DNA of 64,000 nucleotides, taken from an uncultured Roseovarius sp. Its GTDB lineage: Bacteria > Pseudomonadota > Alphaproteobacteria > Rhodobacterales > Rhodobacteraceae. The notes beneath the pieces were generated by a model, which saw nothing but the letters and a program-made list of their open reading frames with translations, had not been told where the DNA came from and ran no database searches. This document shows positions 44,999 to 55,752 of this stretch, one piece after another. The stretch is taken from contig CANMBU010000003.1 in assembly GCA_947496175.1 (NCBI GenBank), positions 836,334-900,333 of the forward strand, given 5' to 3'. Positions within the stretch are counted from its first letter, which is position 1, and every line of letters starts with the position of its first letter. The position numbers were made by a program, and so were the translations under genes.

Positions 44999-45342
44999 TG
45001 ATCTGCCTCCCGCTCCATCACCTCAACCGTGCTCCAGATATCCAGCGGCTCTTCCACACGCGGGAATGACACCTGATCAACCTTGCCAAACTGGTTGGGC
45101 TGTAGCGGCAATAGCCCTAGCCGCTTGAAATTGATCTCCGCCAGGTCCCGCAACCGTTCAGGCCGGTTCAGATAGGCCCATTCGGCGTTGAGAAAGCGTA
45201 ACCGCTCTCGCGCCGCGGTAATCTGCTGTTGCACCTCTACCGAGCGTGCCTGTGCCTCTTGCGTCTCATAATTTTCACGGTACGCCCAAAAAGCCAGGCC
45301 AATGACCAAAAGAGAGGTTATTATATAATAAAAAGAGCGCAT
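44995..45342 (-). CDS. ftsL: Cell division protein FtsL
   Basis: 115 residues: short cytoplasmic start, one membrane helix (FYYIITSLLVIGLAFWAY), then a coiled coil (TQEAQARSVEVQQQITAARE and RLRFLNAEWAYLNRPERLRD). Forms the FtsQLB complex that activates FtsWI. One-base overlap with the rsmH stop (TAATG). Confidence 0.92.
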   Translation of the reverse strand: MRSFYYIITSLLVIGLAFWAYRENYETQEAQARSVEVQQQITAARERLRFLNAEWAYLNRPERLRDLAEINFKRLGLLPLQPNQFGKVDQVSFPRVEEPLDIWSTVEVMEREADQ

Positions 45343-46325
45343 TAGCGTCTTCCTTTCACAGTCGGCATTCCAATAGAGGCCCGATCCACCGGGCGCGCCG
45401 GTGCGTCGGTTCGTGTGGCCACACGTAGCTTCGCACTACGCGCGCGGGGATTTAAGGCAAGCTCATCCTCATCAGGCGCAACGGCCTTGCGGGAGCTTTG
45501 TGTGAACTGAGGCGCTTCCCGAGAGATCTCCGGCGCGTGCCGACTGCCCTGCCCCGTGGATCCCGTCTTGATCTGCAAGAACCGCTTCACCATGCGGTCT
45601 TCAATCGAATGAAACGTGACCACCGCCAGATGCCCTCCTGGCTTCAACGCACGCTCTGCCGCCTCCAGCCCGTCGACCAGCTCGCCATATTCGTCATTCA
45701 CTGCGATACGAATGGCCTGAAAGCTGCGCGTCGCTGGATGGGCCTGACCCGGCTTGGCGCGCGGCAAAGCGCCCTCGATAATCTCTGCCAGTTGCAGTGT
45801 TGTGACAATCGGCACGTCCGCCCGCTTGGTGACAATTGCGCGGGCAATGCGGCGACTGGCACGTTCTTCGCCGTAAAGATAAAGGATATCAGCCAAAACA
45901 GCCTCATCCACAGTGTTGACCAACTCCGCCGCGCTTGGCCCTTCCTGGCTCATGCGCATATCAAGCGGGCCGTCCTTCATAAAAGAAAACCCACGCTGCG
46001 CCTGATCGAGCTGCATGGATGACACGCCCAGATCGAGCACAACACCATCAAGGGACTGCGCGTGGCGGTCCAGTACGGAGAAGACACCCTGCACCAAAGT
46101 GATCCGGTCGCCATAGGCCGCAGCCCAGCTTTGCGCCAAGTCCATCGCAAGCGGATCACGATCCAGACCGGTCACATGCTCCGCGCCAGCGTCCAGCAAG
46201 GCGCGTGTGTATCCACCCGCACCCAACGTGCCATCAAGCCATCGGCCAGAAACCGGAGAAACAGCCGCAACAAGCGGCCCAATAAGCACAGGAATATGAG
46301 GGGACATCGCGGCAGCACTCCCCAT
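45342..46325 (-). CDS. rsmH: 16S rRNA (cytosine-1402 N4) methyltransferase
   Basis: 327 residues from ATG 46325; an ATG at 46307 also has a good Shine-Dalgarno and is possible. SAM-binding loop [17 protein letters not shown], then [20 protein letters not shown] and [16 protein letters not shown]. Methylates the ribosomal P-site nucleotide C1402. Second gene of the dcw cluster, three bases after mraZ. Confidence 0.97.
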
Positions 46326-46328
46326 CGC

Positions 46329-46832
46329 TCAATCCTCGCCCGGTGGGTAAACCAGAGTGAGCGGGTCAAAGTCATCTGACTGCTCGGACAGCCAGGCCTC
46401 CAACTCGGCACCCTCCGTGCCCTCATAGGTGTCGGCATTCCAAATCTCGAAATACTCGCCCATGGCGACCATCGTTGCCTCGCCGTCCAGCCCAATCTGC
46501 TGGCGCAAACGCTGCGGCAGAACAATCCGGCCGTCTTTGTCAATTTCGGTATCCCAGGATTTACCCAGGATCATCTTGCTGGCACGTTTACGCGCCTCGG
46601 ACCCGCGCGGCATGGCACGGATATCAGCCTCGATCTCGGCCATCGCCTCAATCGTGTAGGCCTGCAAACAGTTCTTGAGATGGGGGCCGTGCAACACAAC
46701 CATCCGCGGCAAGGAAATCTCTGGGCAACGCGGGTCGCCATCGGCCAGCACAGCGCGAAAATCGGCAGGGATCGACATCCGACCCTTGCCGTCAACCTTT
46801 TGGTTGAACTCGCCTCTGAAGCTCAGCGTCAC
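46329..46832 (-). CDS. mraZ: Transcriptional regulator MraZ
   Basis: 167 residues from a GTG start. Two swapped-hairpin AbrB-like repeats with DxxxR motifs: VDGKGRMSIPADFR and IDKDGRIVLPQRLR. MraZ is the first gene of dcw clusters and represses its own promoter in other bacteria. The region upstream is long and AT-rich; I could not identify the repeated MraZ-binding boxes with confidence. Confidence 0.95.
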   Translation of the reverse strand: MTLSFRGEFNQKVDGKGRMSIPADFRAVLADGDPRCPEISLPRMVVLHGPHLKNCLQAYTIEAMAEIEADIRAMPRGSEARKRASKMILGKSWDTEIDKDGRIVLPQRLRQQIGLDGEATMVAMGEYFEIWNADTYEGTEGAELEAWLSEQSDDFDPLTLVYPPGED

Positions 46833-47486
46833 TGCGCGCCTGCCCTCTTTGTCTGCCCCCGCGTTTCAATTTTTGACCCCTGGAAACGAAACGACGGATT
46901 GAGCTGCTGCCACTGCCCAATCCGCCGCCCTCGTCCCGCTTTGCGGGGTGTCCAGCTGCGCGCGCCACCTGGGGGGATGTCTGCTCGCCCGCGCGCCGGA
47001 TCTCTCGTTTTGATGAAGCGGGTGCCTGTATGAAACCTGACTTGGAATTTTTCGGGGTTCTAAGTGCCCCTCTTATCCCGTCCTCATCGTGCAAGCAGTA
47101 ATACATGGTACTTTGTGGAACTCAATAAAAATCTACCCAATCACCTACTGAATATGGGTTTTGCCACCCCTTGAAAACAATATCTTGTGTAAAAGCTGCA
47201 CGAAATATCACATAACTTGGGGTAATTCTGCGTTATAAACACAATATATAGTGTGTAATTTCCTTACCTAAAAATTCCCATATTTTCCCGAATATTTCTT
47301 GTAACACCGCAGTCGGAACGAGACCAAAACAAGAACATTTTGATTTAACGGCAAAAAATCATACGAAGTTCCACAAGTGATTCGCATCAGATCAGCGAAG
47401 ATCCCATGATTTCCCGGCGCAACCACCACTTGGTTCCAGGCAATCCCATCCAAAAGGGGAATTCAGTCGCAAAATGTCTAAAAACA
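46833..47486 (-). promoter_or_regulatory. Long upstream region of the dcw cluster, with palindrome
   Basis: About 650 bases without a supported gene. 47100-47470 is clearly richer in A/T than the flanks and probably holds the dcw promoter. A near-perfect 18-base palindrome (ACACAATATATAGTGTGT, 47239-47256, one mismatched pair) looks like an operator. TTGTGGAACT (47113-47122) recurs inverted at 47367-47376, and a GANTC site (GATTC) lies at 47379-47383. I checked for RNase P RNA and tRNA signatures and saw none. A 104-codon frame at 46792-47106 is probably spurious. Confidence 0.4.
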
Positions 47487-47523
47487 GGGTGCGTTAGCCC
47501 CTGCAAACGGAGGGCTTACGCCC
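47487..47523 (-). terminator. Rho-independent terminator at the end of the dmdA operon
   Basis: On the minus strand GGGGCGTAAGCCC pairs with GGGCTAACGCACCC (one bulged base, one mismatch) across an 11-base loop, followed by TGTTTTTAG. It overlaps the end of the ridA-like frame and ends the minus-strand run that begins at 52784. Confidence 0.8.
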
Positions 47524-47846
47524 CGACCGACCTGGCCGTCACCACAACTTCGATCAGGTACCCCGGATCCAGCGCCACGCCGACGCAGGCGCGTTGTGGC
47601 CAGTTCGCCTCCGGACCGATCCAATCGTTCCACACAACGTCCATCTCTGGCTTGAAGGCGATATCGCTTAGATACACTGTCGCCTGAAGCAGCTGCGTCT
47701 TGTCGCTGCCGAGCGCGCGCAACAGCCTTTCAAGCTCCTCCATCGTATTTGCGGTCTGCGCCGCAATCCCGTCCGCGCAAACTGGATCAGTGGCAACGAC
47801 ATATGCCAATCCATCGGCCTCTGGCTTCTCCGGGTATGCGTTTCAC
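47516..47846 (-). pseudogene. RidA/YjgF-like gene, frameshifted or truncated near the N-terminus
   Basis: The readable part (from about 47812) is typical RidA: GLAYVVATDPVCADGIAAQT, LLQATVYLSDIAFKPEMD and NWPQRACVGVALDPGY. The only in-frame start is TTG 47809, which would lack about 20-25 residues of the first strand and has no Shine-Dalgarno. A GTG at 47846 has TGAGGG seven bases upstream and begins MKRIPGEARG in another frame, a plausible RidA start that then runs to a stop. A small deletion or frameshift (or a sequencing error) between about 47810 and 47820 would explain both. RidA proteins deaminate reactive enamines. Last gene of the dmdA run. Confidence 0.65.
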
Positions 47847-47855
47847 CTAAATCCC

Positions 47856-48356
47856 TCACAGCCACTTGAACATCACCAGCGCATCCACGAGCCCTTGATC
47901 GGGATGCCGAAACGCGCTCGGCAGGCGACCAACGATCTCAAACCCCAGCTTTGTCCAAAGCGCAATCGCGCCCACATTGCTGGCCACCACACAATTGAAC
48001 TGCATGGCCTCATAGCCCAAATGACGCGCCGCATCCTGGCTATGAACACACATCGCCCGGGCAATCCCCTGCCCCTGTGCAGCCGGTGCTGTGATGTAAC
48101 CGCAGTTGCAGACATGGGCACCGCCGCCCTGCTGATTGGTCTTGATGTAAAAGGTGCCAAGGATAACGCCATCCCGCTCGGCCACATAAGTCGCCGCCGG
48201 TGCGTCACACCAGAAGCTCAGCAAGTCTTCTCGCGAGATAGCCGGATCAATGGCATAGGTATCCCCGGGCCGGATCACATCGCGCAGGATCGGCCAGAGC
48301 GCGTCAAGATCCGCGTCGCGCACTGGCCTTATGATCAAGCCCTCAGGCGTTGACAT
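47856..48356 (-). CDS. GNAT-family N-acetyltransferase
   Basis: 166 residues from ATG 48356, overlapping the acuI stop by 14 bases. GNAT fold: IRPVRDADLDALWPILRDVI, ATYVAERDGVILGTFYI and the acetyl-CoA loop APAAQGQGIARAM (motif A, Q/R-x-x-G-x-G/A), then EAMQFNCVVASNVGAIALWT. Acceptor unknown. Its place directly after acuI suggests a link to acyl-CoA or amine detoxification, which is only inference. Confidence 0.88.
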   Translation of the reverse strand: MSTPEGLIIRPVRDADLDALWPILRDVIRPGDTYAIDPAISREDLLSFWCDAPAATYVAERDGVILGTFYIKTNQQGGGAHVCNCGYITAPAAQGQGIARAMCVHSQDAARHLGYEAMQFNCVVASNVGAIALWTKLGFEIVGRLPSAFRHPDQGLVDALVMFKWL

Positions 48357-49329
48357 CCACCACCACGCGGCCTTTGACTTGGCCTTTGAGGATGTCTTTG
48401 CCCAGCCCCGGCAAATCACCCAGCGTCGCGGGATGGATCATCGCCTCAAGCTTGTCCATCGGCAGGTCCTTGGCAATCCGCTCCCACGCGCGCAGGCGGT
48501 TGTCATAAGGCTGCATCACGCTGTCGATGCCAAGCAGGTTCACACCGCGCAGCAGAAACGGAATGACCGTCGCCGGAAGTCCCGCACCCCCGGCAAGACC
48601 CACAGCCGCGACACTGCCGCCATATTTGATCTGTCCAAGCGCGCGCGCCAGCATCTCGCCGCCCACGGCATCCACACATCCGCCCCAGGTCTCGGCCTCA
48701 AGCGGGCGTTTGGTTGTCTCGTTGATCTCTTCGCGTGGCACGATCTGCGTGGCTCCAAGACTTTTGAGATAATCCGCCGTCTCAGGGCGCCCGGTCACAC
48801 CGGCCACCTCATGTCCCAGATTGGCCAGAATGGCCGTGGCCACGGACCCAACGCCACCAGCGGCTCCCGTAACCAAAACTGGCCCATCCTTGATCCCGTG
48901 ATCTTCCAAAGCCATCACCGCCAGCATCGCGGTGAACCCGGCTGTGCCAACGGCCATCGCCTGACGTGTATCCAACCCTTTGGGAAGCGGCACCAGCCAG
49001 TCGGCGTTGACCCGCGCCTTTTGCGCATAGCCGCCCCAATGCACTTCACCCACGCGCCAGCCGGTCAAAACCACCTTATCGCCGGGGCTGTAACGGTCAT
49101 CCTCTGACGACTCGACCGTGCCGGCAAAGTCGATACCGGGCACATGCGGATACTGACGCACCAACCCACCGCCCGGCCCAATACACAGGCCGTCCTTATA
49201 ATTCACTGTCGAATACTCGACGGCGACGGTCACATTACCCTCGGGCAAATCCGCGTCGCTGATTTCCTTGACCGCGGCAGAGGTCTTGCCGCTTTCTTCG
49301 TCCTTCTCAACAACCAATGCGTTGAACAT
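48343..49329 (-). CDS. acuI: Acrylyl-CoA reductase (NADPH), AcuI
   Basis: 328 residues from ATG 49329. Zinc-free medium-chain dehydrogenase/reductase of the YhdH/AcuI group: VNYKDGLCIGPGGGLVRQYP, PGIDFAGTVESSED and nucleotide loop VTGAAGGVGSVATAIL. It reduces acrylyl-CoA to propionyl-CoA, which detoxifies acrylate from DMSP cleavage. Adjacent to dmdA, an arrangement known in Ruegeria pomeroyi, which strongly supports the name. Confidence 0.95.
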   Translation of the reverse strand: MFNALVVEKDEESGKTSAAVKEISDADLPEGNVTVAVEYSTVNYKDGLCIGPGGGLVRQYPHVPGIDFAGTVESSEDDRYSPGDKVVLTGWRVGEVHWGGYAQKARVNADWLVPLPKGLDTRQAMAVGTAGFTAMLAVMALEDHGIKDGPVLVTGAAGGVGSVATAILANLGHEVAGVTGRPETADYLKSLGATQIVPREEINETTKRPLEAETWGGCVDAVGGEMLARALGQIKYGGSVAAVGLAGGAGLPATVIPFLLRGVNLLGIDSVMQPYDNRLRAWERIAKDLPMDKLEAMIHPATLGDLPGLGKDILKGQVKGRVVVDVNA

Positions 49330-49387
49330 ATCGCTCTCCATCCTGTCCTTGCAGAGCCACGCCCTGCTTTCATCGTTCAAAAAATAC

Positions 49388-50491
49388 TCAGATCCAAAAA
49401 CGCCGCTGCACCTCGGCTTTGCGGATGCCGTCTGGTGTCTCGACGTCCAACTCCGTGCCCGGCTTCCAATGGGTCATGCGGATCATGCCGATCGCCACGT
49501 TGGTGTCAAAATCCGGGCTCCAGGCCGCAGAGCTTACACGGCCAACGACCGTGCCCTCAGACATTACCGGCCACCAGCGGTCGCATCCCGGCACAGGTGG
49601 CCCATCAATGGAAATCGCCCGGATTTCCTGCACCGGGCCTTCCTTGGCCACCCGCAAAAGCGCGTCGCGGCCGATACAGCCAATGGCGCTGTGGGTGTTG
49701 CAAAACTTGCCCAGGCCGCATTCATGCGGTGTGTTATCATCCGTCATGTCATTGCCATAACTCAGCAACCCGCCCTCGATCCGCTCAATCAGGTTGGGAC
49801 AGCCCGCATGCACATCCAGATCCTTGCCCGCCTCCATCAGCGCATTCCAAAGCGGCATGCCGATGTCGCTGCCTTCGACGTAAATCTCAAAACCGCCCTG
49901 CTTGGAATAGCCTGAGCGCGCAATCACCAGATCACGGCCCTGAAAATCGAACACACCAAAGCGGAAAAAGCGAACGTCTCGCACCCCGTCGCCAAAGACC
50001 CGCGACAAAAGCTCATCGGATTTCGGCCCCTGAATGGCCAGAGGCGACACATCCGGCTCGTCCACCAGAACATCCAGCCGCCAGCCATGCGCAATCGCCT
50101 TGACCCAGTAGAGCAAGTCACTGTCAGCAATGGAGATCCACCAGCGATCTTCCGACAGCTTCACCGCCACGGGATCATTGAGCATTCCCCCCGTCTCATC
50201 GACAATCGGCACATAGAAACATTGCCCCGCCGTCATGCCCCGCAGATCACGCGGGGTGAGCATCTGCATCAGGCGTCCGGCATCCGGGCCACGCAACTCG
50301 ACCTGGCGCTCAACGGATACATCCCAGATTTGCACCGCTTCTTTAAGGTGCCTGTAGTCTTCCTCAACCGAGCGAAACACGGTCGGCAAAAGCATGTGAT
50401 TATAGACGGTGTACGCCTTAACCCCGGCGGCTTCGACACCATCGGAAAAGGGAGTGCGGCGCAGACGCCGCGATGGAGACAAAAGCGCCAT
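49388..50491 (-). CDS. dmdA: Dimethylsulfoniopropionate demethylase
   Basis: 367 residues, GcvT-like fold. It transfers a methyl group of DMSP to tetrahydrofolate, giving methylmercaptopropionate; the major marine fate of DMSP. N-terminal motif VEAAGVKAYTVYNHMLLPTV and MLTPRDLRGMTAGQCFYVPI, then SIADSDLLYWVKAIAHG, and the folate-side SGYSKQGGFEIYVEGS. Paralogous GcvT and sarcosine dehydrogenase domains share the fold, but sequence pattern and acuI neighbour favour DmdA. One-base overlap with the upstream small gene. Confidence 0.95.
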   Translation of the reverse strand: MALLSPSRRLRRTPFSDGVEAAGVKAYTVYNHMLLPTVFRSVEEDYRHLKEAVQIWDVSVERQVELRGPDAGRLMQMLTPRDLRGMTAGQCFYVPIVDETGGMLNDPVAVKLSEDRWWISIADSDLLYWVKAIAHGWRLDVLVDEPDVSPLAIQGPKSDELLSRVFGDGVRDVRFFRFGVFDFQGRDLVIARSGYSKQGGFEIYVEGSDIGMPLWNALMEAGKDLDVHAGCPNLIERIEGGLLSYGNDMTDDNTPHECGLGKFCNTHSAIGCIGRDALLRVAKEGPVQEIRAISIDGPPVPGCDRWWPVMSEGTVVGRVSSAAWSPDFDTNVAIGMIRMTHWKPGTELDVETPDGIRKAEVQRRFWI

Positions 50492-50745
50492 CAGCTTTTT
50501 CCTCGTAAATTACGTTTACATGTGGTGGGCGCATTGCCCGTCGTGGAGTAGGCCGCGATGTCACAAGTGGCACAGCGGTATTCGACAAAGCGACCGTTTT
50601 GATCGCCGGTTTCTGACCATTTACAGTCCCGCTTTCGAAACACCTGATCGGGCTTTCCGGCGACCGCGTTTCCGGCCCGCTGGCGCCCCCAGGCCCACCA
50701 GACAAAGCCGATCACGGCCAGCGCAAGGACAAAAGCCAGCGGCAT
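50491..50745 (-). CDS. Small membrane-anchored Cys-rich protein before dmdA
   Basis: 84 residues. N-terminal membrane helix (PLAFVLALAVIGFVWWAWG), then a soluble part with four Cys, including CATC (RCATCDIAAYSTT) and two more (RKRDCKW and TTCKR), a possible zinc or redox site. Family not recognised. TGATG overlap with dmdA and one base after DinB indicate co-transcription. Confidence 0.8.
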   Translation of the reverse strand: MPLAFVLALAVIGFVWWAWGRQRAGNAVAGKPDQVFRKRDCKWSETGDQNGRFVEYRCATCDIAAYSTTGNAPTTCKRNLRGKS

Positions 50746-50746
50746 C

Positions 50747-51256
50747 CTAAGCGTCCTCAGGCATCAAAAAGAGGTCTGAGACCGGCGTAGCCAGCCCTGC
50801 TGCGCTCAACAAGGCATGGATTTGCCCGCGGTGATGGGTTTGATGGTTGAACATATGGGTGACGCAAAGCGCAATGGGCTTGGTCACATCGCGCTGTGCA
50901 GCACCCGAGTACCATTTAAGGTCCCCGGCGAGATCCACACTGCGCAGCGAATTGGCCCAGTGCCGGATCTTGCCGTCCAGATGAAAGCGCGCCGCGTTCC
51001 ATGCGCCCAGCGTCGGATGCAGCGTCGGGCTGTCCGGGATGCCGCCCTTTGGCGCCTCAACCGAGGGATCAAACCGGCTTATCCAGATCTGATCGCCCCA
51101 GAGCAAGTGATTGAGCGTGCCAAGAATAGACCCAAAGAACGCACCGCGATCCTTGGTCAGAACCGTCATCGGCTGACCATCCAGCGCGTCAAAGATCTGG
51201 CGGTTTTGCCAGGCCCCGTAGCGCGCCATCATCTGACAGTATTCCGGCGTGATCAT
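50747..51256 (-). CDS. DinB-family protein
   Basis: 169 residues, four-helix bundle. Possible metal ligands are the three His positions seen in the family: TLNHLLWGD and HMFNHQTHHRGQ. DinB proteins include thiol transferases that use bacillithiol or mycothiol in other groups, and many of unknown function. In operon with DUF1326 (9 bases upstream). Confidence 0.9.
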   Translation of the reverse strand: MITPEYCQMMARYGAWQNRQIFDALDGQPMTVLTKDRGAFFGSILGTLNHLLWGDQIWISRFDPSVEAPKGGIPDSPTLHPTLGAWNAARFHLDGKIRHWANSLRSVDLAGDLKWYSGAAQRDVTKPIALCVTHMFNHQTHHRGQIHALLSAAGLATPVSDLFLMPEDA

Positions 51257-51265
51257 CGGCGCGAC

Positions 51266-51973
51266 CTAAGGTTTGGGGCCTTTCCAGTCGATCGGGCAAA
51301 TCTCGGCAGACTTGCCTCCGAAATCCCAGATCCGACCATAGTCACGCACTTTGGATTTGATCCCACGTGCGGCGATGATGTCCGGGCCCATCCAGTATTT
51401 GGAATTGCTGATCATCACAGGGTGATCCTTGCTGGCCCCTTCGACCATCTCGATCTCGCCCTGAATCTTGCGGCCAATGTAAAGTCCGCGCTTGGTGCCC
51501 TCGCGCACAATTTCGACCTTCTCCCGCTCGGCCCCCACGATGTCGCTCACCAGCATGGTGAAAAGACCCGTGGTTCCACCAGCCGCACCTGAGAAAATCT
51601 GCAGGATGCCGTTATAGGCTTTGCCAGAGGCACGCTCATCCACATAAGCCGCCACTTTCCAGCCGCCTTCGGCCATACGTCCGGGGATATCGACCATCAG
51701 ACCAACATTTAGACCAGACAGGTCTTCGCCCTCAAAATGCCCTTCATCAATCGCAATGGCCATCCAGGCGTGACAATGCCCTTCGGTCGGTGGGTGCGCC
51801 CCGAGACTGACCACGCAAGGGCAAAAGACCTCGCAAGAGCAATTGAGAAAGAGCTCGCCTTTGATGGCCCATTCGGTGGGCGTCATCTTGCGCCGCTTGG
51901 GGTTCTCCATGCGGTTGTCGATGCGCTGCGACACCGGTAGCTTATCTGCATCCTGACGACGTTTCAGGGCCAT
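51266..51973 (-). CDS. DUF1326 protein
   Basis: 235 residues. Start ATG 51973 has a strong GGAGG seven bases upstream, though the domain itself begins about residue 32. The conserved N-terminal Cys cluster LNCSCEVFCPCVVSLG and HCHAWMA are intact; IVRYGPIHDSAA-type features are absent, but GLFTMLVSDIVGAEREKV matches the family. Metal binding is suggested by the cysteines. Four bases after the DUF2182 gene, and DUF1326/DUF2182 genes often pair. Confidence 0.88.
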   Translation of the reverse strand: MALKRRQDADKLPVSQRIDNRMENPKRRKMTPTEWAIKGELFLNCSCEVFCPCVVSLGAHPPTEGHCHAWMAIAIDEGHFEGEDLSGLNVGLMVDIPGRMAEGGWKVAAYVDERASGKAYNGILQIFSGAAGGTTGLFTMLVSDIVGAEREKVEIVREGTKRGLYIGRKIQGEIEMVEGASKDHPVMISNSKYWMGPDIIAARGIKSKVRDYGRIWDFGGKSAEICPIDWKGPKP

Positions 51974-51977
51974 GTTT

Positions 51978-52784
51978 TTATCCTCCCATAACCAGCGGCG
52001 CGGCCAATACGGCCAACCCGCCTGCGATCAAGATCACGCCCATGGGTCGGATCACCCTATGGCCGATCTGTGGTAACTTTTCCAATACCATAAAGAGCGT
52101 GGCCAACCCCATCCAGAGCAGGCTCATCACTCCGCCGACAAATCCCAGCGCCATGAAGCCCCAGCAACAGCCGACGCAAAAGGCACCCATGCCCAGCCCC
52201 ATACGCAGCCCGCCGTCAAAGCCGGTGCGCCAGTGGCCAAGGAAATAGGTCATCGGGCTGTGACACACCCCGTGGCAGACTTCTTTCGCGCGGGTGAACT
52301 GAAACGCCCCCACGACAATCAGCAGACCACCGGATATGAGCGTTGATTTAGCAATGCCCAGCATGTCAATCACACCGCCAAACAACAGCCCTAGCTGCAC
52401 CAGTGTGATGAGGGCGGCAAAGCCCACCCAGACAGCGAAATAGCCAATCAGCACGCCAAGCCAGCCCGAGGTCGTGCCATCTGCGCTTTTGATCAGATCC
52501 TCATAGGCCCTTAGCGTCGGCACCATGGTGGGCAGCATCATCGCCGCCATCATGATGGCCCACATGGCAAAGAGCGGCCCAAACCGGTCCATCGCCATAA
52601 TGCCTTCGCCCATCGCCATTGGCATGCCAGGCTGCATTGCGCGCATCTTTTCCGCCAAGGGTCCAGGACGCCCAATCAAGTCAAGGTCCATGCCAATCGC
52701 CATCATATACATGACCATCCAGGCCATCAGAATGGTGGCAAAAAACGCGAGCCAGGCGATGGAACGCAGCGACAGAACGGACAT
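51978..52784 (-). CDS. DUF2182 integral membrane protein (predicted metal-binding)
   Basis: 268 residues from ATG 52784; an in-frame TTG at 52814 lacks a Shine-Dalgarno. About seven membrane helices. Met-rich segments (AWMVMYMMAIGMDL, RAMQPGMPMAMGEGIMAMD and MWAIMMAAMMLPTMVPTL) and CHGVCHSPM and GAFCVGCCWGFM carry Met, Cys and His suited to soft metals such as copper. First gene of the minus-strand run, divergent from the GntR regulator. Confidence 0.9.
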   Translation of the reverse strand: MSVLSLRSIAWLAFFATILMAWMVMYMMAIGMDLDLIGRPGPLAEKMRAMQPGMPMAMGEGIMAMDRFGPLFAMWAIMMAAMMLPTMVPTLRAYEDLIKSADGTTSGWLGVLIGYFAVWVGFAALITLVQLGLLFGGVIDMLGIAKSTLISGGLLIVVGAFQFTRAKEVCHGVCHSPMTYFLGHWRTGFDGGLRMGLGMGAFCVGCCWGFMALGFVGGVMSLLWMGLATLFMVLEKLPQIGHRVIRPMGVILIAGGLAVLAAPLVMGG

Positions 52785-52826
52785 GACCTTCGTGGCCCTT
52801 GGATTGAGTCTCAACTGGCGATATAA

Positions 52827-52852
52827 TTGTCAGACATTTAAAGGTCTGACAA
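52827..52852. promoter_or_regulatory. Perfect inverted repeat in the DUF2182-gntR intergenic region
   Basis: TTGTCAGAC (52827-52835) and GTCTGACAA (52844-52852), eight bases apart. Each arm also contains a short palindrome (TGTCAGACA and GTCTGAC), the form of half-site used by FCD-type GntR regulators. The right arm ends at the base before the gntR ATG, so binding would block the regulator's own start and the promoters of both directions. Confidence 0.75.
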
Positions 52853-53590
52853 ATGAAATCTTCCTCCGACAGCAAGCCACAAGACCTCTCGGCGCAAATC
52901 GCCCAGGCCATCCGCGATGCCATCATCGAAGGCCACATGATCGTGGATGAACGTCTGCCTTCGGAGGCGGAACTGTCAGAGCAGTTTGGCGTCTCACGAT
53001 CCACTGTGCGCGAAGCCCTCAAGCGGCTTGCCGCGCAATCGCTGATCCGCACGCAGCGCGGCGCCTTTGGCGGGGCTTTTGTCAACCGCCTGAGCTACGA
53101 GGATGCCTATAGCCAGCACATAACCACCTCGACGCTGCTGCTCTCAATGAACGCGGTCAGTTTTGAAACCGCCTGCGAAGCGCGTTTTGCAATGGAACGC
53201 GCCTGCGCGCCACTGGCCTGTCAGCGACGCACACCAGATCATCTGGCCACCATGCGCGCTGAAACCCACCGGCAATCACAACCAGGCCTGAGCGACGAAA
53301 GCTTTTGCGCCTCAGATGTCGCCCTGCACCGCGCCTTGGTGGACGCGTCGGGCAATCCAGTGCTCAGCTACCAGTTGGCCGGCGCCGTTGAAGCCATGCA
53401 GCCTTTGATGAACATGATCACCTTCACCGCCCGCTCGCGCGAGGAAATCGTGGGGCTTCACGCGGCGCTGACTGACGCGCTGGAAACCAATTCGCCCGAT
53501 GCCGCCGATCAAACCTTGCGGCAGCTTGAGGTCTACACACTTGAGCTTGGCCGCGATGTGATGGCAGCCCGCGCCCGCAAGTCAGGCTAG
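52853..53590 (+). CDS. GntR-family regulator, FadR/FCD subgroup
   Basis: 245 residues. Winged helix N-terminal domain (LPSEAELSEQFGVSRSTVREALKRL split over residues 36-60), then an all-helical FCD effector domain (SFETACEARFAMERACAPLA, then DVALHRALVDASGNPVLSY). Regulators of this group sense organic acids. Divergent from the DUF2182-dmdA-acuI run and close to an inverted repeat that abuts its start, so it is probably the operon regulator. Effector could be a DMSP product such as acrylate, methylmercaptopropionate or 3-hydroxypropionate; this is speculation. Confidence 0.93.
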   Translation: MKSSSDSKPQDLSAQIAQAIRDAIIEGHMIVDERLPSEAELSEQFGVSRSTVREALKRLAAQSLIRTQRGAFGGAFVNRLSYEDAYSQHITTSTLLLSMNAVSFETACEARFAMERACAPLACQRRTPDHLATMRAETHRQSQPGLSDESFCASDVALHRALVDASGNPVLSYQLAGAVEAMQPLMNMITFTARSREEIVGLHAALTDALETNSPDAADQTLRQLEVYTLELGRDVMAARARKSG

Positions 53591-53603
53591 GCACCCCTGT
53601 TTG

Positions 53604-54536
53604 TCAATCAAAGCCCTCCGGCGCGCTCCCCCCAAGACCTTTGCGGAAATCTGTCGGGCTTACGCCGGTGTTGCGTTCAAACATACGGGTGAAAGCAGTG
53701 CGGCTGGAAAATCCCACGAGATACGCGATGCGTTTTACCGGTAAATCACCCTCACGAAGCAAGACACCGGCCTTTTTGATCCGCAGGTCGCGCAGCAACT
53801 CAATCGGTCCAATCCTGTAGGCGGCAGCAAATCGTTCAGCAAAGCTGGACCGGCTCATCCCCGACAAGGCGGCAAGGCTGTCGACGGTGTGCGCCGCACC
53901 GGGGTCATCCAGCATGGCACGCAGGCTGGGCCAAAGCGCAGGGTCGCGCAACACGTTCATCCATCCAGCACCCAATGCGTCCTGTGACGACCGCCGCCGG
54001 ATCAGATCAATCAGGCATTGGGTCAAAAGCGCACGGATCATCGCGCGGCTACCGGGCTGCGGTGCGCTCAACTCCTTGAGCAAAGCTTGCAGAACCGGCG
54101 CCAAACCCTCCGCCTCAGCGATATGTCCATAAAGCGGCGCGCGGATCAGATCGACGATATCAGGCGCACCGCGCAGGCCGACACGCAAATGCGCGCACAG
54201 CGCAACGATGTGAGAGCCGCTGTCACCGCCTGGCGCGTCCTTGAGCAAACGTCGCAGCTCTAGCTCGGCTGGCTGACACGCGGGCGCCGGGCTGGACCGA
54301 GGACCAGAGCTGCGCATCCGGTGATGCCACATTGCGGGAATCAATACCAAGGAGCCTTCCGACACCGAGAGCGCTGGCATGTCGCGCAAGACGATTTCGC
54401 CCTGCCCAGACAAGATGTAATGCAAGGTTGCACCCGTATCCTGCCCCAAACCCACATCGCAATTGCACTTCAGTTCGCACACGGCAAACGGGTCGGGCGC
54501 AATCTCCATCCGGTCCAGAACCTGATCAAAATCCAT
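53604..54536 (-). CDS. AraC-family transcriptional regulator
   Basis: 310 residues from ATG 54536. N-terminal cupin-like effector domain (CNCDVGLGQDTGATLHYILS and LSVSEGSLVLIPAMWHHRM), then two AraC helix-turn-helix motifs: VDSLAALSGMSRSSFAERFA and PVKRIAYLVGFSSRTAFTRM. The ATG lacks a Shine-Dalgarno and overlaps a 33-codon upstream frame (54526-54627) that does have one, so translation may be coupled. Divergent from the cysteine hydrolase gene with direct repeats between. Confidence 0.9.
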   Translation of the reverse strand: MDFDQVLDRMEIAPDPFAVCELKCNCDVGLGQDTGATLHYILSGQGEIVLRDMPALSVSEGSLVLIPAMWHHRMRSSGPRSSPAPACQPAELELRRLLKDAPGGDSGSHIVALCAHLRVGLRGAPDIVDLIRAPLYGHIAEAEGLAPVLQALLKELSAPQPGSRAMIRALLTQCLIDLIRRRSSQDALGAGWMNVLRDPALWPSLRAMLDDPGAAHTVDSLAALSGMSRSSFAERFAAAYRIGPIELLRDLRIKKAGVLLREGDLPVKRIAYLVGFSSRTAFTRMFERNTGVSPTDFRKGLGGSAPEGFD

Positions 54537-54627
54537 ATTGGGGAGATAAACGGTTTTCGGACGGAAGGATACGTTCGCAGAAACAAGCGCACGGTGTTCG
54601 GACGGAAAGATACCCGACCTCGTCCAT
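54526..54627 (-). CDS. Possible leader peptide upstream of the AraC gene
   Basis: 33 codons beginning ATG 54627, preceded by AGGAG with seven-base spacing, and ending in a TGA that overlaps the AraC start region (stop at 54526-54528, AraC ATG at 54536). No similarity known. It could couple or attenuate AraC translation. The frame is short, so chance is possible. Confidence 0.35.
   Translation of the reverse strand: MDEVGYLSVRTPCACFCERILPSENRLSPQYGF
54556..54613. promoter_or_regulatory. 17-base direct repeats between araC-type gene and hydrolase gene
   Basis: TTCGGACGGAAGGATAC at 54556-54572 and TTCGGACGGAAAGATAC at 54597-54613, 16 of 17 identical, start to start 41 bases (about four turns). 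Tandem direct repeats are the usual AraC-family operator form. A TAGATA -10-like hexamer lies downstream toward the hydrolase gene at 54641-54646. Confidence 0.75.
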
Positions 54628-54672
54628 ATTTTGACTCCTGTAGATAAACAAAAACCCCCGAGGAGGACTCCC

Positions 54673-55503
54673 ATGTGCAATGGACATGATCGTGATCACA
54701 AAGATGACCACCCGCATATCTCGCGTCGCGCGGCAATAACCGGAGCCGCTGCGGTTGGTGCGGCGGCCGCCACAACCGTCGCATCATCCGCTGCAGCACA
54801 GGAAAACCCATATGCGGATCCGGCGGAACCTGCTCTGCCCCCATCGAATATGAAACTTGATCTGAGCCGTGCCGCTCTTGTTGTGACTGATCCCCAGATC
54901 GACTTTTTGCACCCCGATGGCGTGACTTGGGGTGTGATCGGTGCAAGCGTTGAAGAGCACAATACGGTGGAAAACATCGAGACCTTGTTCAAAGAGGCCA
55001 AGGCAGCCGACATCACCGTTGCGGTTTCTCCTCACTATTACTACCCGACCGACAAAGGCTGGAAATTCGAAGGTGCGCTTGAAAAGCTGATGCACAAGAT
55101 CGGCATGTTCGACCGCACTGGGCCGACCAACCTTGATGGCTTCGAAGGCTCAGGCGCCGATTTCATGCCCCAGTACAAACCCTATATCGAGGACGGCAAA
55201 ACCATCGTCACCTCACCGCACAAGGTCTATGGCAACGATACAAATGATCTGAGCCTGCAACTGCGCAAAAACGGCGTGGACCAAGTAATCCTCGCGGGTA
55301 TGTCCGCCAACCTGTGCACTGAGAGCCATATGCGGGAGCTATTGGAAGACGGGTTTGAGGTTGCCGTTGTGCGAGACGCAACCGCGGCTGCGATGCTGCC
55401 CGAGGGCGATGGTTATCTCGCAGCGCTGATCAATTTCCGCTATATGGCGAACGCAGTCTGGACCACAGAAGAAACCGTGGCAAACATCAAAGCCGCCGGA
55501 TAA
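54673..55503 (+). CDS. Tat-exported cysteine hydrolase (isochorismatase-like)
   Basis: 276 residues from ATG 54673 (GAGGAGGA upstream). N-terminus has a Tat signal: HISRRAAITGAAAVGAAAATT, cleaved near SSAAAQE. Isochorismatase-like hydrolase domain with a possible catalytic triad: Asp in VVTDPQIDFLHPD, Lys in TSPHKVYGN and Cys in GMSANLCTESHMREL. Family enzymes hydrolyse amides or vinyl ethers; the substrate is unknown. Likely controlled by the divergent AraC-type gene through direct repeats. Confidence 0.9.
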   Translation: MCNGHDRDHKDDHPHISRRAAITGAAAVGAAAATTVASSAAAQENPYADPAEPALPPSNMKLDLSRAALVVTDPQIDFLHPDGVTWGVIGASVEEHNTVENIETLFKEAKAADITVAVSPHYYYPTDKGWKFEGALEKLMHKIGMFDRTGPTNLDGFEGSGADFMPQYKPYIEDGKTIVTSPHKVYGNDTNDLSLQLRKNGVDQVILAGMSANLCTESHMRELLEDGFEVAVVRDATAAAMLPEGDGYLAALINFRYMANAVWTTEETVANIKAAG

Positions 55504-55548
55504 GTGTCTGCCTAATGAAGAAAATTGCGTCGCTTACGAGCGGCGCAG

Positions 55549-55752
55549 TTACTCAATTCGCCTGGCCTGGTCGATCAGCATAATCGGGATACCCGAGCGG
55601 ATTGGGAAAGCCAGCCCTGCAGACTCACTGATCAGTTCCTCACTCTCGGCGCTGTATTTTAGCGAGGCATGTGTCTGCGGACAGATCAACGCTTCAAGCA
55701 TCCGGCGGTCGAATTCTGAGACCTCAGTCACGCTCGTTTCAGCATCGTTCAT
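55549..55752 (-). CDS. Trm112-like protein
   Basis: 67 residues. [16 protein letters not shown] and [19 protein letters not shown] match the Trm112/UPF0434 family. Only one Cys (in ALICP) is present, so the zinc site of eukaryotic Trm112 is not complete, as usual in bacteria. Four-base overlap with the LON-domain gene (55749-55752). Confidence 0.88.

Follow-up and report, generated by a model that had tools for sequence, protein, structure and literature searches.

The window analysed here is a stretch of 64,000 nucleotides from an uncultured Roseovarius sp. (contig CANMBU010000003.1, positions 836,334 to 900,333; a genome of 3.85 Mb in 13 contigs, whose nearest named relatives are Roseovarius), and our subject is the gene cluster in it around dmdA, the gene for dimethylsulphoniopropionate (DMSP) demethylase. 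Eight open reading frames (ORFs) lie in tandem on the minus strand, from 52784 to 47516, in the order DUF2182, DUF1326, DinB, a small cysteine protein, dmdA, acuI, GNAT and RidA-like, and a gene for a GntR/FCD regulator diverges from their head on the plus strand (Table 1). All of these genes were found where the original prediction, made from the sequence alone, had placed them. By coordinates, 4 bp separate DUF2182 from DUF1326, 9 bp DUF1326 from DinB and 1 bp DinB from the small protein gene, which overlaps dmdA by 1 bp; dmdA and acuI are 58 bp apart, which is the largest gap, as had been claimed, acuI and GNAT overlap by 11 bp, and 46 bp lie between GNAT and RidA. Families were called by comparing profile bit scores with curated cut-offs; in the relatives discussed below, ORFs were called by a script according to length, without a trained gene finder.

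In order to see the cluster in its relatives, we mapped the window's proteins around dmdA in a sample of named loci (the best 80 of 346 relatives by DmdA similarity), of which 70 could be judged, having at least 4 kb upstream and at least 3 kb downstream of dmdA. The core order, with GntR diverging from DUF2182-DUF1326-(DinB)-dmdA-acuI, recurs in most of the judgeable named relatives, and this is more than chance. The DUF2182-DUF1326 pair precedes dmdA, in the same orientation, in 53/70 judged loci, GntR and acuI are each present in 61/70, and a divergent GntR orthologue is found in 67 of all 80. In dmdA-bearing Roseobacters, acuI has been reported directly 3' of dmdA in 24 of 26 (PMC3338564). 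The 17 judged loci without the full pair comprise nine with GntR-dmdA-acuI and neither pair gene, one (L048) with one of the two, and seven that lack the pair, GntR and acuI alike. Copies of dmdA with at least 80% identity that stand without the pair, GntR or acuI were seen in L061, L080, L087, L089, L102, L107 and L117; Roseovarius mucosus has two dmdA copies, one with the cluster (L057) and one without it (L061).

The association extends well beyond the closest relatives. Among 394 genomes of the family, nearly all of different genera, DmdA was found in 169 and DUF1326 in 209; 144 have both, 25 DmdA only, 65 DUF1326 only and 160 neither (odds ratio 14, p 2.5e-30), so that the association holds across genera. 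DUF1326 lies within 2.8 kb of dmdA in 88 of the 92 genomes compared, these being the genomes, of the 144 with both genes, whose coordinates stood among the matches listed for each gene (G000, which is this genome, and genomes without DUF1326 were left out). The comparison of gene neighbourhoods, which the original prediction had offered as a check, thus shows the upstream pair to be conserved with dmdA. Membership of the other flanking genes, which had been proposed for all alike, is uneven: DinB has moderate support (29/70 judged loci, 33/80 of all), GNAT (19/70 and 21/80) and the small cysteine protein (4/70 and 4/80) are lineage-limited, and RidA was found in 0/80 named loci at E 1, a search in which the positive control, the window's own copy, was recovered. 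GNAT and RidA were accordingly rejected as general members of the operon. In Seohaeicola (L066) and in G005 (L013) the DinB gene lies between dmdA and acuI rather than before dmdA.

A palindromic putative operator stands at GntR's own promoter and is conserved across its orthologues. It is an 11-bp site of the TTGTCTGACAT type, whose strict form, W-TGTCNGACA-W, occurs within 200 bp of the divergent GntR gene in 60/67 named loci, against 0 for the reversed-pattern control; a looser core motif is found in 62/67 (control 4), with two or more copies in 38. Strict sites elsewhere in the same loci number 3 in 1.316 Mb, and in the 67 loci the interval from the GntR region to 200 bp beyond acuI contains none. 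The core motif is kept in all nine loci where dmdA follows GntR without DUF1326. In the window there are two operator halves, covered by a sigma-70-like promoter match; this overlap is suggestive only, given that two such matches were found where 3.4 are expected by chance. The claim that a GntR-headed unit includes dmdA-acuI and the metal-type pair is supported by the conserved order together with the operator at the GntR end, and that the genes form a single regulated operon we consider very probable.

Table 1. Features of the dmdA locus, by position in the window; scores are profile bits/curated cut-off unless stated otherwise (aa, amino acids).
Feature	Position	Strand	Evidence
GntR/FCD regulator gene, divergent at operon head	52853..53590	+	PF00392 69/27, PF07729 73.5/24.3; helix-turn-helix (HTH) and FCD both above cut-off
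Putative operator half 1, TTGTCAGACCT, abutting the GntR start codon	52842..52852	-	matrix score 28.4
Putative operator half 2, ATGTCTGACAA, 15 bp centre to centre from half 1	52827..52837 (G000:C3:889160-889170)	-	matrix score 35.8
Sigma-70-like promoter match (TTGTCA, 18, AATTAT) over both operator halves	52823..52852	-	9/12 positions
DUF2182/PpoB2-family membrane protein, 268 aa, predicted copper chaperone type	51978..52784	-	PF09948 207/28.7
DUF1326 protein, 235 aa, Cys-cluster, predicted fold possibly acetoacetate-decarboxylase-like	51266..51973	-	PF07040 164/25
DinB-family protein, 169 aa	50747..51256	-	PF05163 73/23
Small Cys protein, 84 aa, lineage-limited	50491..50745	-	no family above cut-off
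dmdA, DMSP demethylase	49388..50491	-	NF009133 687/410
acuI, acryloyl-CoA reductase, directly 3' of dmdA	48343..49329	-	TIGR02823 446/297; AcuI equivalog NF051456 424.5/440, slightly below
GNAT acetyltransferase, accessory, mainly in Roseovarius-type loci	47856..48353	-	PF00583 56/20.7
RidA-like ORF, N-terminally incomplete	47516..47809	-	PF01042 55/27.3; match from profile position 34 of 121
Hairpin and U run, candidate intrinsic terminator	47476..47506	-	-12 kcal/mol, z -3.98

At the other end of the operon, a strong terminator had been predicted. We do find a hairpin followed by UUUUU there, and 0/200 shuffles folded as well; a longer piece of 51 nucleotides gives a weaker signal (z -1.41, 20/200 shuffles as good), and a consensus terminator scan lists no terminator at the operon end. 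The RidA-like ORF begins with TTG and lacks the first third of its domain, and is perhaps a decaying gene. The DinB protein has a single, weak match in the PDB (E 0.0075), and a scan of 46000-55600 against Rfam returned no RNA family. Adjoining the GntR gene is an AraC-type regulator (cupin and HTH; 53604-54674), divergent from an exported isochorismatase-like protein (54673-55503), and the same two genes likewise adjoin the cluster in the closest relative, L038; just beyond the terminator, at 45342-46832, lie mraZ- and rsmH-like genes (named by eye) of a division cluster.

The operator is not confined to the dmdA locus. A matrix made from 75 sites in the named relatives' loci, the window excluded, was applied to the 30 core sites of this genome, and gave 37.0 for the promoter of an SBP56/SELENBP1-type gene, 35.8 for the dmdA operon and 12.3 for the next site; a third regulon promoter in this genome was set aside, the other 28 core sites all scoring 12.3 or less. 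A 19-base pattern allowing up to three mismatches finds six places in the whole genome (control 3), of which the two with a single mismatch are the operon and SBP56 promoters; the four other matches include the operon's own second half-site. On these sequence matches, we hold with good confidence that the GntR protein is the direct regulator of both the operon and SBP56 in this genome. The SBP56 gene is distant, lying outside the window; it is the only one of this genome (PF05694, 585 bits, cut-off 34), and among solved structures its product comes closest to 2ece, a Sulfolobus selenium-binding protein. The HH and HxxH motifs, which human SELENBP1 needs for copper-dependent methanethiol oxidation (PMC10362175), are kept in 30/30 SBP56 loci. 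A strict operator lies within 350 bp upstream of SBP56 in 5/29 usable loci, including this genome, where ∼0.08 would be expected from genome density and the control gave 0/30; one further such site was found in G333.

In a few genomes SBP56 lies at the cluster itself. It comes after dmdA-acuI, in the same orientation, in L051, L070 and L096 and stands beside GntR in L059 (4/80 named loci; 4/70 of those judged), and among the matches listed, coordinates place it 64 bp past dmdA in G066, next to the cluster and divergent from it in G043, and at a distance of 5.9 kb in G240 (G345 is apparently the same genome as L051). Splitting the SBP56 proteins by identity, again among the matches listed, yields a near group in 86 genomes and a group at 42-46% in 49, with a union of 119. 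The near type is present in 69/169 genomes with dmdA and 17/225 others, and the second group in 40/169 and 9/225, with no link to DUF1326 beyond that of dmdA. The theme of acrylate and thiol by-products, which the original prediction had raised, gains some support from an operator common to the operon and a gene of thiol-oxidase type; the pair's own role in it we still infer.

Nine extra operator sites in relatives were picked by eye among the matches listed and are thus a selected sample. Three precede acyl-CoA ligases, one an acyl-CoA-dehydrogenase-like gene, one an ABC transporter gene and one an unassigned gene, and three are not upstream of a gene. Two of the ligases, from two genomes, have 3-(methylthio)propionyl-CoA ligase as their best model and are dmdB-like (800 and 779 bits, cut-off 822); the third is best matched by another acyl-CoA synthetase model. 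Within the limits of such a sample, these putative targets fit a DMSP-demethylation regulon. In L253 (G278:C1:1422200-1427200, positions 2498-2524), of the same genus, a tandem operator with the spacing of 15 bp known from the window is found 24 bp ahead of an acyl-CoA-dehydrogenase-like gene, which scores 220 bits against a Clostridium acryloyl-CoA reductase model (cut-off 640).

What the pair at the head of the operon does must be judged largely from its residues and its company. In DUF2182, C170, C174, C203, C206 and C207 and M74, M78, M82 and M83 are invariant in 41 sequences, and these methionines and cysteines could be Cu(I) ligands. Its predicted structure is all-helical (predicted local distance difference test score 84); Foldseek returned no match for the model at E 0.001, although the absence of a listed fold is no evidence for a new one, and PDB sequence searches with the DUF1326 and DUF2182 profiles gave nothing useful. 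That the two proteins form a pair handling copper, or a similar soft metal, is in our estimation an even bet.

The pair also occurs without dmdA. Of the 65 genomes that have DUF1326 and are dmdA-negative (no match at E 1e-100), 60 have AcuI at E 1e-60. We fetched 20 dmdA-negative loci of the same family, in which acuI stands on the same strand beside the pair in 17, a BCCT transporter is present in 11 and an orthologue-like GntR (66-77% identity) in 7, each with an adjoining strict operator. Two of these loci, L122 and L125, carry diverged DmdA-like proteins (43% and 40%) beside DUF2182-DUF1326-acuI, that of L122 reaching 368 bits against the demethylase cut-off of 410. Of 20 loci outside the family, 13 have DUF2182 beside DUF1326, one has dmdA and none acuI; L241 has the order DUF2182-DUF1326-dmdA-acyl-CoA ligase, with no acuI match. 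Also outside the family, a profile scan of L246 showed an acyl-CoA synthetase after the pair and a DddP-like M24 protein nearby (381 bits, cut-off 600), and L242 has a DddP-like M24 protein (387 bits, same cut-off) with DUF2182-DUF1326. In a FastTree phylogeny of DUF2182, the versions from DMSP/acrylate clusters form one well-supported group of 82 rows (four of them 'neither'), with 11 rows from other contexts outside it, and two deep branches within the group each contain both clusters that have dmdA and clusters that lack it. The pair goes with the entire DMSP/acrylate cluster, and its tie to acuI is firmer than that to dmdA. Since acuI keeps the pair where dmdA is missing, we rejected the pair as proof of demethylation alone.

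Taking these results together, we lean towards the view that a local GntR/FCD repressor controls a DMSP-pathway operon in the window, and that this operon opens with two genes for a dedicated pair of copper-handling proteins. As long as no inducer is present, the GntR protein would occupy the paired TTGTCTGACAT-type sites overlapping its own start and the operon promoter, and metabolism of DMSP or acrylate would produce a metabolite, probably of the acrylate branch, that releases it. In Ruegeria pomeroyi, dmdA-acuI is induced ∼10- to 14-fold by DMSP and acrylate and not by methylmercaptopropionate (PMC3338564), which indicates a ligand on the acrylate side. One transcript would then encode DUF2182 as a PpoB2-type membrane copper chaperone, DUF1326 as its soluble Cys-cluster partner, DinB, the small protein, DmdA and AcuI, and in this lineage GNAT; DmdA would strip the first methyl group and AcuI would clear toxic acryloyl-CoA. 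The same repressor may also open the distant SBP56 gene, and during thiol production the pair would provide SBP56 with copper or buffer the metal for it, a role suggested because the DmdA route ends in methanethiol and members of SBP56 are copper-dependent methanethiol oxidases. SBP56 as a client of the pair is a tentative proposal. The idea in its fullest form, a two-protein copper delivery system that is dedicated to DMSP catabolism, is switched by the GntR repressor together with dmdA, with dmdB-like genes and with an SBP56 methanethiol oxidase that it loads with copper, seems to us rather doubtful.

Several observations weigh against such a copper supply. SBP56 fails the MtoX equivalog (NF052453, 116 bits against 650), and we therefore class it as SBP56/SELENBP1-type and not as MtoX; the characterised Roseobacter MtoX is periplasmic and has its own SCO1 and MauG genes (PMC5739008). 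No strict operator was found in 24/29 of the regions upstream of SBP56, and in another 40 loci no SBP56 gene lies within ∼6 kb of the pair. DUF1326 predicts SBP56 weakly once dmdA is allowed for: with dmdA, SBP56 is present in 63/144 genomes having DUF1326 and 6/25 lacking it (p 0.08), and without dmdA in 9/65 and 8/160 (p 0.05). The predicted fold of DUF1326 may resemble acetoacetate decarboxylases rather than a known copper chaperone, and confidence in the model is low around part of the Cys cluster. The nine judged loci with GntR and dmdA-acuI and neither gene of the pair show that the pair is not essential to the route, and acuI lies within 2.7 kb of DUF1326 in 40/65 dmdA-negative genomes, from which it follows that methanethiol is not the whole story.

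It may be, then, that the pair serves acrylate handling, by protecting or restoring a thiol or metal site hit by acrylate or acryloyl-CoA, or through an unknown acrylate step with DUF1326 as the enzyme, its fold then being of the acetoacetate-decarboxylase-like kind, and that dmdA is a passenger between the pair and acuI. The tie to acuI described above is what such a role has to offer; the gene order of L241, which comes from a distant family and has dmdA and a ligase after the pair in the absence of an acuI match, speaks against it, as does the reach of the operator to SBP56 and dmdB-like genes, and we regard it as unlikely, though deserving of attention. A further possibility is that the pair is a general module for the supply of, or defence against, copper or soft metals, whose promoter was captured by the DMSP regulator, the motive being that DMSP-rich algal surfaces or the release of sulphide and thiols alter copper availability; no DMSP enzyme would then be its client. 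Both the pair's occurrence outside the family, mostly without acuI or dmdA, and its absence from nine loci that retain GntR-dmdA-acuI agree with this. The single well-supported group of DUF2182 from DMSP/acrylate clusters, apart from the 11 others, instead suggests specialisation, and with the association with dmdA across genera it makes a general module improbable.

Finally, the upstream genes might be hitchhikers in a chance or inherited neighbourhood, with dmdA served by a promoter of its own. The nine loci without the pair are compatible with this, and 222 bp upstream of R. pomeroyi dmdA suffice for a reporter (PMC7181598), so an own dmdA promoter is possible in that relative. We liken that promoter to the loci in which dmdA directly follows the GntR operator, and infer the same order for R. 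pomeroyi. Against hitchhiking stand the linkage in 88/92 genomes, sampled at one genome per genus; the lack of any strict operator between the GntR region and acuI, combined with an operator directly before dmdA in 9/9 loci without DUF1326; and the gaps of at most 9 bp up to dmdA in the window. We consider it very improbable.

The dmdA-acuI core is already known; what appears to be new is the pair, the operator and the SBP56 link around it. Our literature search, which left subscription journals and preprints largely outside its reach, found no report of the pair beside dmdA, of the operator, or of SBP56 under that operator; with the same coverage, it found neither DUF1326 nor DUF2182 by name and, among papers on COG5486/PpoB2, none on DMSP. 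It also returned no relevant paper on a named dmdA regulator or on SPO1911/SPO1912. Although dmdA is the gate gene of marine DMSP demethylation, its regulator and the genes accompanying it in most sampled Roseobacters have been little discussed in the literature found. If our view is right, the sharing of this operator by a conserved copper-type pair would link both DMSP turnover and the loss of methanethiol with copper, which is scarce and sometimes toxic at sea, and DMSP demethylation, methanethiol disposal and copper supply would be one regulon. The named genes, the 11-bp operator and the small regulon bear on the switch between demethylation and the release of dimethyl sulphide.

Among known systems, the closest is the dmdA-acuI operon of R. 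pomeroyi DSS-3 (PMC3338564), which has the same succession of DmdA and AcuI and is induced by DMSP and acrylate; in the window, two to four additional genes precede dmdA in the operon, starting with DUF2182-DUF1326-DinB. The acuR-acuI-dddL operon of Rhodobacter sphaeroides (PMC3338564) is likewise an acrylate-responsive DMSP operon combining a local regulator with acuI, but there the regulator is the TetR-type AcuR and the partner a DMSP lyase, whereas here they are GntR/FCD and dmdA. For the pair, the comparison is with the PpoB1-PpoB2 tyrosinase operon of Marinomonas mediterranea, in which PpoB2, a membrane protein, is required if the tyrosinase of the same operon is to receive copper (PMC2855505). 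Pfam places the window's DUF2182 in the family that takes its name from PpoB2, yet the operon in the window has no tyrosinase gene and has DUF1326 as the partner, and the copper role suggested here derives from the family. The mtoX/SCO1/MauG operon (PMC5739008) shares with our system the SBP56 family and the link to DMSP, and clusters a copper chaperone gene with its oxidase. It differs in that the SBP56 described here falls far below the MtoX cut-off and has a GntR-type operator, where mtoX lies beside an IclR regulator, and in that the candidate copper partner is a relative of PpoB2, where mtoX has SCO1.

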